Shown here: positions 47,493 through 50,461 of the stretch, piece by piece
Numbering within the stretch: the first letter of the stretch is position 1
Layout: each line of letters begins with the position of its first letter
Assembly (NCBI GenBank): GCA_022823625.1
Contig: JAJEHQ010000034.1
Span: forward strand, 1 to 64,000
Reading direction: 5' to 3'
Source of the DNA: Gammaproteobacteria bacterium
Lineage (GTDB): Bacteria > Pseudomonadota > Gammaproteobacteria > Arenicellales > JAJDZL01
DNA length: 64,000 bases
The notes under the pieces: model-generated
Told to the model about the DNA's origin: nothing
Seen by the model: only the letters and a program-made list of their open reading frames with translations
Databases searched by the model: none
Position numbers and translations under genes: made by a program

Positions 47493-49058
47493 GTGCGAAG
47501 AAGAAGATCCAATAATTTCGTTTTTCAGTCAGTATTGCTGGCACTATTGGTTCATACTGCAGTAGTTTTGGCAATCGGTGTAAGTATTATTTTGCGGCCA
47601 GAATTTGATTCAGGAGCTTTGGTTGAGTTAGAGACACCCGTGAATGCTCGTGCGGTGAACGAAGCTGATGTAATCGAAGAATTAGAACGCATGCAGTTGG
47701 AGGAAGAGAAAGAGCGTCTAGAGCAGCAAGAGCAACAGAAGCAAATGGAGTTGGCACTTGAAAAGCAGCGTGAAGCCGAGCGTCTTACCCAGGAAGAACA
47801 GGAAAAACTGGAACAGATGGAGACCGAGCGACTAGCTCAGGAAGAGGAACTTCGTTTGGTCGAGGAACAGAAACGTTTGGCTCAAGCCGAGATTGAGGCT
47901 GCTGAACAGAGACGCTTGGAAGAACAGAGCCGAATAGAAGAAGCCGATGCTTTACGGCTTCAACGGGAAGAGGAACTGAGGCAGGCAGAGGAACTAAAGC
48001 GCCTAGCACAAGCCGAGATCGAAGCGACGGAACAAAAACTACTGGAGGAACAGCGTCGGCTAGAGCAAATGGAAGCAGAGCGATTAGCTCAGGAAGAGGA
48101 ACTTCGTCTGGTCGAGGAACAGAAACGTCTGGCTCAAGCGGAGATTGAGGCTGCCGAGCAGAGACGCTTGGAAGAACAGCGTCGGCTAGATGAAGCAGAA
48201 GCTTTACGACGTCAACAAGAAGAAGAACTAAAGCAGAAAGAGGAACAGAGTCGCCTGGCACAATCCGAGATTGAAGCGGCAGAACAAAAGAAATTAGAAG
48301 AGCAGCGGCTCATGGCAGAGGCAGAAGCCAAGCGGCTTCAGCAGGAAGAAGAACTGAAACAGGCCGAAAAGCGTAGAGAATTGGCACAGGCGGAAGCAGA
48401 AGAGGTCGAGAAAAAACGCCTGGAGGAACAACGTCGATTAGAAGAAGCTGAAGCCCTACGACGCCAGCAAGAAGAGGAAAAGCAGAGGCTTGAAGATGAA
48501 ATTGCCGCCGCAAAGCAACTCGCATTGCAGCAGCAGGAACAAGAACGCGAGGAACTCAGAAAACAAAAAGAAATTGAACAGAAACAGGAGCAGGAACGTC
48601 AGCGACTAGCTGCAGAAAAGAAGCAAAAGGAACTTGAAGAAAAAGCAAGACTTGCAAAGCAAAAGGAGCAGCAAAAACAGGCCGAGTTGGCTGAGCAATT
48701 ACGAAAGCAGCAGGAAGCAGAGTTGAAGCGCCAGCAGGAGCAGGAGCGTGTAGAGCGTTTGACAAGGCGCGCCACCACTGAATTTGCCAAGTACATTCCT
48801 CAAATCAAGAATAAAGTTACTCAGAATTGGATTGAACAGACGAATTGGGGCGATCTCAGAGCAACCGTCACAATCAGAGTAAATCCCAAGGGCGAAGTTA
48901 TGTTTGTCGAGGTCTTAGACTCAAGTGGTTCAGTCGCCTATGATCGTTCAGTTACAACTGCAGTGCGGAAAGCATCGCCTCTTCCTATTCCTAGAGATCC
49001 TGAAATTTATGCGCTCATCAAAGAATTCAATTTTAGTTTTGGCGGAAAATCTGGTTGA
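47493..49058 (+). CDS. tolA: Tol-Pal system protein TolA with a long repeat-rich coiled coil
   Basis: TolA spans the periplasm and links the TolQR motor to TolB and Pal. The 521-residue protein starts with GTG. It has one transmembrane helix (about 12-34), a very long charged Glu/Gln/Lys/Arg coiled coil (about 60-430) and a globular C-terminal domain (about 435-521) with VTQNWIEQTNW and VTIRVNPKGEVMFVEVLDSSG. Within the coil, five copies of a 42-residue unit run from about 128 to 337. It is longer than E. coli TolA (421), mainly because of these repeats. Confidence 0.95.
   Translation: MRRRRSNNFVFQSVLLALLVHTAVVLAIGVSIILRPEFDSGALVELETPVNARAVNEADVIEELERMQLEEEKERLEQQEQQKQMELALEKQREAERLTQEEQEKLEQMETERLAQEEELRLVEEQKRLAQAEIEAAEQRRLEEQSRIEEADALRLQREEELRQAEELKRLAQAEIEATEQKLLEEQRRLEQMEAERLAQEEELRLVEEQKRLAQAEIEAAEQRRLEEQRRLDEAEALRRQQEEELKQKEEQSRLAQSEIEAAEQKKLEEQRLMAEAEAKRLQQEEELKQAEKRRELAQAEAEEVEKKRLEEQRRLEEAEALRRQQEEEKQRLEDEIAAAKQLALQQQEQEREELRKQKEIEQKQEQERQRLAAEKKQKELEEKARLAKQKEQQKQAELAEQLRKQQEAELKRQQEQERVERLTRRATTEFAKYIPQIKNKVTQNWIEQTNWGDLRATVTIRVNPKGEVMFVEVLDSSGSVAYDRSVTTAVRKASPLPIPRDPEIYALIKEFNFSFGGKSG
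47874..48503 (+). repeat. Five 126-bp coding repeats inside tolA
   Basis: Units of 42 codons begin with RLAQAEIEAAEQ or a close variant at about residues 128, 170, 212, 254 and 296; the last unit is the most diverged (ELAQAEAEEVEK). A 42-residue period equals six heptads, so the coiled-coil register is kept across each unit. DNA identity between units is visible, with RLAQAEIEAAEQRRLEEQ conserved in units one and three, suggesting amplification by unequal recombination. Confidence 0.8.
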
Positions 49059-49060
49059 TC

Positions 49061-50461
49061 ATGAGAAAAACGCTTTTTTGTCTATTGACACTGTTGGGTT
49101 TATCGCTGAACTCAAATGTCGCCTTGTCGGCGATCACCATTGAAATTGAAGAAGGTGTTGAGCGTGGAGTTCCTATTGCCAATGTGCCAATTGGTGACGA
49201 AGATAAAGAAGACCTGCAATTCTCGGTGATCACCATTGAAATTGAAGAAGGCGTCGAGCGTGGAGTTCCTATTGCAATTGTGCCATTTGGTGGTGAAGTT
49301 AAAGAAGATCTGCAATTTTCGCTAGAAGAGGTGATTCGGAATGATCTTTACAGAACCGGAAAATTTGATCCAATTCCTATAGATCAGTATCCGAGTCACC
49401 CGACATCTTCTGATTCGGTAGTCTTTTCTGACTGGCAACTAATCGAGGCCGATCTGGTGTTGATTGGTAGAGTGGAACCGGATGAAGCAAAACCCGATCA
49501 TTACCGGATCATCACCCGTCTCTATGACTCCTTTGAACAGAAACAGGTCTTTGGTGTACAGTTCATCATCTCTGCGGACAAGTTTCGACAGATTGCACAT
49601 CGAATCGCAAACAGCGTCTTCGAGAAAGTGACAGATCAAGAAAGTTCGTTTGACACCAAGATTTTGTATACGACGTCCAATTCAAACTCAAATGGCGGTA
49701 GTGCGGAGCACGCGCTATATATTGCGGACTATGATGGTTACAATCCACAGACTATTTTGCGCACCGAGCGTCCTATCCTGTCACCGGTATGGTCTCCAGA
49801 TGGTACAAAAATAGCATATGCAGAATTGTTTGTGGGATATTCCCTGATTTACATTCAGGAAGTGGCGACGGGCGAGCGAACTTCAATTGCTGCCCCAAAC
49901 GGATACAACAGTGCTCCAAGTTGGTCCCCTGACGGTGAAAGGCTCGCGTTCTCACATTCCAACGAAGGAAATTTTGAAATTTATATTTATTCCATTGACG
50001 AACAGAGGTTGACGCAAGTTACGGATCACCATCAAATCGACACTGAACCATCATGGCGACCAGATGGCAAAAGATTGGTGTTTACGTCAAACCGAGGCAT
50101 AACACCCCAAATTTATGAAGCACCTCCGAGACGAAAGGCGCGGGCGAAACGGGTTGACATTGACGGTCGGTCAAATTCCGGTGCAAGTTATTCTCCAACA
50201 GGTGAACAGTTGGTCGTGATTACTGATCAGGGAATCGGTAAACAAGTTGGTATTTATGACTTCTCGGCTGAGACCACCCGTGTCATTTCCTCAACAACTC
50301 TGGATGATTCAGCTAAATTTTCACCACACGGAGATATGGTGATACATGTCGTCGAGGGCTCCAAAAGATATATTAAAATACTATCACCCGATGGACGAGT
50401 CGCAACTCGTGTTCCTGTCGTCGAAGGACAAGTCAAGCAGGTAGATTGGGCCAGCTTTTAG
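49061..50461 (+). CDS. tolB: Tol-Pal system beta-propeller protein TolB with duplicated N-terminal segment
   Basis: TolB is the periplasmic propeller that binds Pal and, via its N-terminus, TolA. I use the ATG at 49061; a TTG two codons earlier overlaps tolA. A signal peptide (to about residue 24, LSA) precedes ITIEIEEGVERGVPIA, the equivalent of the E. coli TolA-contacting strand and linker. This segment occurs twice in tandem, 32 residues apart, and only the second copy leads into LEEVIRNDLYRTGKFDPIP, the normal domain. The six-bladed propeller follows, with repeated WSPDG blades (about 244-440). At 466 residues it is about 35 longer than E. coli TolB, and the duplication accounts for this. 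Confidence 0.95.
   Translation: MRKTLFCLLTLLGLSLNSNVALSAITIEIEEGVERGVPIANVPIGDEDKEDLQFSVITIEIEEGVERGVPIAIVPFGGEVKEDLQFSLEEVIRNDLYRTGKFDPIPIDQYPSHPTSSDSVVFSDWQLIEADLVLIGRVEPDEAKPDHYRIITRLYDSFEQKQVFGVQFIISADKFRQIAHRIANSVFEKVTDQESSFDTKILYTTSNSNSNGGSAEHALYIADYDGYNPQTILRTERPILSPVWSPDGTKIAYAELFVGYSLIYIQEVATGERTSIAAPNGYNSAPSWSPDGERLAFSHSNEGNFEIYIYSIDEQRLTQVTDHHQIDTEPSWRPDGKRLVFTSNRGITPQIYEAPPRRKARAKRVDIDGRSNSGASYSPTGEQLVVITDQGIGKQVGIYDFSAETTRVISSTTLDDSAKFSPHGDMVIHVVEGSKRYIKILSPDGRVATRVPVVEGQVKQVDWASF
49133..49324 (+). repeat. Tandem 96-bp in-frame duplication in the tolB 5' end
   Basis: Unit 1 (49133-49228) encodes ITIEIEEGVERGVPIANVPI and on to QFSV. Unit 2 (49229-49324) encodes ITIEIEEGVERGVPIAIVPF and on to QFSL. 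The first 16 codons give identical residues and the ends (KEDLQFS) are identical; differences cluster in the middle (GDED versus GGEV). The nucleotide match is strong but includes silent changes, so the duplication is not an assembly stutter of identical sequence. Confidence 0.93.

Follow-up and report, generated by a model that had tools for sequence, protein, structure and literature searches.

Lineage-specific tandem duplication of the TolA-box region of a gammaproteobacterial TolB suggests a preserved second TolA box

Does a TolB protein whose N-terminal, TolA-contacting segment has been duplicated offer TolA a second binding strand, or is the additional copy an idle passenger? This question is raised by the tolB gene in a 64,000-nucleotide stretch of DNA (the window; assembly GCA_022823625.1, contig JAJEHQ010000034.1, positions 1 to 64,000). 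The evidence base for the doubled TolB is this one genome of one uncultured gammaproteobacterium. TolB is a periplasmic protein, and the motor protein TolA holds on to it in keeping the outer membrane stable. In E. coli, the TolA-binding site of TolB comprises the first 12 residues of the mature protein (residues 22-33). This TolA box is disordered in free TolB, forms a parallel beta strand on the C-terminal domain of TolA, and is tucked between the TolB domains when TolB is bound to Pal; a ternary complex has also been described (PMC7066135, PMC7391070). Ile25, Val26, and Ile27 are the key residues of the box, and the Kd of the TolA-TolB complex is about 40 µM in E. coli and 40-200 µM depending on the species (PMC7066135, PMC7391070). 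The TolA box has been published for the TolB proteins of E. coli and P. aeruginosa (PMC7066135).

The gene occupies positions 49061-50461 (forward strand, as all features below unless stated otherwise) and encodes 466 amino acids, with the ATG at 49061 as the likely start rather than the upstream TTG in the list of open reading frames. The protein begins with the signal peptide MRKTLFCLLTLLGLSLNSNVALS(A). Pfam searches revealed a TolB_N domain (PF04052, E = 2e-26) and a PD40 beta-propeller (PF07676, E = 3.6e-26), and the TolB chains of the PDB matched at E values of about 1e-74. The gene is flanked by tolA and a pal-like gene within a tol-pal operon, with TolQ-, TolR-, and TolA-like open reading frames upstream and a Pal-like lipoprotein and a CpoB-like open reading frame downstream; TolA was identified by Pfam, the TolQ-, TolR-, Pal-, and CpoB-like neighbours by inspection only. 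On the Pfam and PDB sequence matches and the position between tolA and the pal-like gene, we identify the gene as tolB. It has its operon place, the TolB_N domain, and the beta-propeller in common with canonical TolB (E. coli, PDB 2W8B; P. aeruginosa TolA-TolB peptide, PDB 6S3W). Canonical TolB, however, has one TolA box in its native position, whereas the window's TolB carries an extra tandem unit of 32 residues in front, with its TolA-box sequence intact.

The repeat consists of two direct, in-frame copies of 96 nt (32 codons) with a start-to-start spacing of 96 nt, and 85 of the 96 positions are identical (89%), with no indels. Tandem Repeats Finder likewise reported an indel-free repeat at 49127-49321 with a period of 96 and 2.0 copies. 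In 300 codon-shuffled versions of tolB, by comparison, the best match over all the in-frame lags tested was 50/96 or lower. Copy 1 (LSAITIEIEEGVERGVPIANVPIGDEDKEDLQ) lies at 49124-49219 and copy 2 (FSVITIEIEEGVERGVPIAIVPFGGEVKEDLQ) at 49220-49315. Copy 2 is in the native position and is the match to the single box of canonical TolB; the Pfam TolB_N alignment starts at residue 58 and that of PDB TolB at residue 56. A sequence-only reading of this DNA had already recognised the tandem duplication but placed it at 49133-49324; it is the same repeat in a shifted phase, and the full footprint, including a third TTTTCG-type end, is 49124-49321.

According to the alignment, each 32-residue unit comprises the TolA box (ITIEIEEGVERG), then VPIA, and then the first strand of the N-terminal domain (D1), which reads IVPF in copy 2. 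The two boxes, at 49133-49168 and 49229-49264, were assigned by family conservation and by comparison with the published box (PMC7066135). The box of copy 1 aligns with residues 23-34 of E. coli TolB, where the published box covers residues 22-33 (PMC7066135). As the sequence-only reading had noted, the peptide ITIEIEEGVERGVPIA, i.e., the TolA box and the residues next to it, is the same in both copies, and the differences between the copies are a mix of silent and replacement changes. The second halves are NVPIGDEDKEDLQFSV in copy 1 (49181-49228), a decayed D1 strand and presumed linker set apart from both copy 2 and the sister species by four replacements, and IVPFGGEVKEDLQFSL in copy 2 (49277-49324), an intact first strand of the N-terminal domain. 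Thus, the description of the unit as a TolA-contacting module holds insofar as both copies keep the family-defining box residues, but the module also includes the first D1 strand, and copy 1 is preserved in its box half only.

To which lineages does the doubled N-terminus extend? The nearest relative examined, a sister species (G005, L031), has one copy, and its TolB is 92% identical over the shared part. One copy is also present in the next relative (G002, L032; 63% identical TolB) and in each of three further congeners. Every other TolB open reading frame that we read was single-copy (61 reading frames, the window's own among them, with 56 distinct box regions). Surveys covered about 650 genomes (80 from relatives, 370 from the class, and 199 from the phylum), and no doubled N-terminus turned up elsewhere among the listed hits, to which this rarity applies, the class and phylum surveys being listed in part. 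With one exception, all listed hits started at query residue 44 or later, so that a single copy aligned; the exception (G587, query residue 15) proved to be single-copy when read. In the TolB of that genome (L062), about 20 residues separate the signal peptide from the single TolA box, which amounts to an extended N-terminus without duplication. In another genome of the phylum survey (G512), two full-length TolB-like matches (E = 1.7e-76 and 2.2e-56) suggest a tolB paralogue. A search of viral contigs yielded no extra TolB for the alignment used in structure prediction. We conclude from these comparisons that the duplication is lineage-specific and derived, and has been seen so far in one species only.

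The single unit of the sister is bounded by TTTTCG at both ends. The 32-residue unit of the window begins two residues upstream of the likely cleavage site of the single-copy relative. In the window, TTGTCG (49124-49129), the first descendant of the microhomology, stands at the start of copy 1, TTCTCG (49220-49225) at the junction between the copies, and TTTTCG (49316-49321) at the 3' end of the duplicated unit, which is the expected trace of a duplication at a 6-bp repeat. The probable site of origin is this TTTTCG direct repeat on either side of the sister's single unit, and slippage or recombination between the two TTTTCG motifs would have doubled the 96-nt unit in frame. Since the copies agree with each other and differ from the sister in six codon states (codons 5, 14, 17, 26, 28, and 31), the event postdates the split of the two species. 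The dS between the copies is about 0.26, close to the 0.27 of the gene body against the sister; being based on 32 codons, this value tells us only that the duplication is not fresh, as had been supposed.

The two copies have met different fates. In codons 4-19, they differ by three silent and no nonsynonymous changes. In codons 20-32, there are four nonsynonymous differences, and in each of them copy 1 is the copy that changed: I to N, F to I, G to D, and V to D. Two of these fall at family positions that are I/V/A and an invariant F in 56 of 56 distinct sequences. As a consequence, the D1 signature [IVA]-V-P-F is retained as IVPF in copy 2 and replaced by NVPI in copy 1, in which the hydropathy of the second half has dropped from 0.08 to -1.06. 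Two more replacements in copy 1, F to L and V to A, lie where it borders the signal peptide. Copy 2 differs from the sister by two replacements (D to E and N to K), and because both are common to copy 1, copy 2 has acquired no replacement of its own since the duplication. Its box, with no nonsynonymous change in codons 4-19, is unchanged at the protein level since the duplication and since the split from the sister.

Both copies match the family consensus x-[LVFI]-T-I-E-I-x-x-G that follows the signal peptide in the 56 distinct sequences compared. Copy 1 keeps the fixed or nearly fixed box positions (I, I/V, and G) and the adjacent P, I, and A. The equivalents of E. coli Ile25 and Ile27 are Ile in both copies, and that of Val26 is Glu in both, as in 48 of the 56 family sequences. 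Copy 1 has lost the sequence signature of the domain strand and retained that of the TolA box. The contrast between box half and D1 half gave a Fisher p value of 0.029 (0.067 without the ambiguous codon 19), resting on six to seven changes and on a division into halves that was picked after the data were seen. The chance of no replacement in the copy 1 box was 0.016-0.085, depending on the assumptions. Values of about 0.02-0.09 are weak, suggestive evidence that selection has preserved the box of copy 1. Recent gene conversion as the origin of the identical box peptides is disfavoured by the three silent differences between the box halves.

Our preferred explanation is that copy 1 adds to the native box another TolA box, tethered by a degenerating linker and placed about 32 residues further out; we regard this as an evenly balanced call. 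Copy 2, which by position and conservation occupies the ancestral place, would continue the ancestral work as TolA box and first strand. Copy 1, with its intact box sequence, would form the new mature N-terminus, and its D1 half, which no longer bears the strand signature and is now more acidic and more hydrophilic, may serve as a flexible linker. In mature TolB, TolA would thus find two alternative strands for beta-augmentation, and the outer strand would lie farther from the body by about 32 residues. In an AlphaFold2 prediction for mature TolB, run on three sequences, almost all of the first 113 residues had pLDDT values under 50, a confidence too low to bear on strand placement or disorder at the N-terminus. 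With one box tucked away by Pal, the other might stay free, so that TolA could catch the TolB-Pal complex more readily and the Pal-controlled switch would be loosened; alternatively, the second box may improve the chance of capture for a weakly binding strand. That the two boxes compete and escape the Pal on/off switch, giving the Tol motor a bivalent or always-available handle, is a tentative and rather unlikely extension.

The TolA of the same operon (47493-49058, assigned by Pfam) combines 42-residue coiled-coil repeats with a C-terminal domain to which the boxes would bind. Its central domain (47792-48421) shows several such repeats of 42 aa (126 nt) with a higher-order period of 84 aa. 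An antisense open reading frame of 158 aa runs across them on the reverse strand (47785-48261) and is most likely a by-product of the repeated codons. As to the TolA protein: In repeat pattern and in length it does not differ from the TolA of the single-copy sister, so the TolA expansion is older than the TolB duplication, and the proposed coupling of the two was rejected. The TolA of the next relative, L032, is shorter.

A serious rival is neutral retention, according to which the function rests entirely with copy 2 while copy 1 drifts, its box being intact through too few mutations. The small number of changes, the borderline p values, and the confinement to a single lineage, with no recurrence among the listed survey hits, are all in line with this view. 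Moreover, we observed no sign that TolA has co-adapted to the doubled TolB, its C-terminal domain being almost identical in the single-copy sister. Against this, the box of copy 1 has collected silent changes and no replacement, while the adjoining half has collected four, and by dS the copies have diverged about as far as the gene body has from the sister. Adjacent repeats of about 100 bp are readily lost through slippage, and the long retention of this one mildly hints at a cost of loss. We consider neutral retention possible though not probable. A hand-over, in which the role of TolA box has passed to copy 1 and the copy 2 box is a mere spacer before the D1 strand, would leave TolB with one box on a longer tether. 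Copy 1 does stand at the free N-terminus like a canonical TolA box, with an extension of 32 residues; the box of copy 2 has, however, been equally conserved as protein, which makes a hand-over improbable.

An assembly artefact, either strain variants fused into a repeat or a bubble assembled wrongly, is very improbable. The assembly is a draft of 44 contigs, and single-copy relatives had been named beforehand as a sign of artefact. The relatives are indeed single-copy, but this marks the duplication as derived and not as artefactual: the copies have states in common that the sister lacks, and some changes in copy 1 are absent from all 56 single-copy boxes. Among these are N and I at the positions that are I/V/A and F in every one of the 56 sequences, and a working single-copy allele is an unlikely source of them. 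In addition, the copies differ at 11 of 96 sites, are exactly in frame, and lie far from both ends of a 116-kb contig.

Signal peptidase I generally requires suitable residues at -3 and -1 and a certain distance from the hydrophobic segment. Judged by the -3/-1 rule and the sequence, the signal peptide (49061-49129) is expected to be cleaved just before copy 1, at ALS/A or LSA/I (slash, cleavage); the corresponding sites are AFS/V in the sister and AFA/V in a congener. At 49130-49132, the Val at the expected cleavage site of the sister and of copy 2 is Ala in copy 1, and ALSA thus contains two sites acceptable under the rule. Cleavage after copy 1 (QFS/V), which would leave an ordinary mature TolB and had been named as a possible refutation, is hardly credible: the duplicated unit does include the FS/V of the ancestral site, but Gln instead of Ala stands at -3 and the hydrophobic segment lies 32 residues upstream, whereas ALS/A or LSA/I is at normal distance.

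A literature search of incomplete coverage yielded no relevant paper on an N-terminal duplication of TolB. The partners of another motor protein likewise use a short, disordered N-terminal strand and parallel beta-augmentation (PMC7066135); there the motor protein is a different one and the cases discussed are without tandem repetition, whereas the TolB box is doubled here. In the translocation of colicin B through FepA, two TonB boxes serve one motor system, as two boxes would here, but they reside on two different proteins, while in the window's TolB both lie in one chain by duplication (PMC8546555).

By its sequence, the locus is a genuine lineage-specific doubling of a well-understood functional peptide. 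TolA and TolB touch through a weak strand that bears force, and Pal is believed to control whether this strand is exposed. Two tandem strands in a natural TolB would be an evolved test of whether the Pal switch and a single valency are needed, and assays of force and septal recruitment could use the doubled protein as it stands. Should copy 1 prove idle, the case would rather reveal how much change is tolerated at the N-terminus of a conserved envelope protein.
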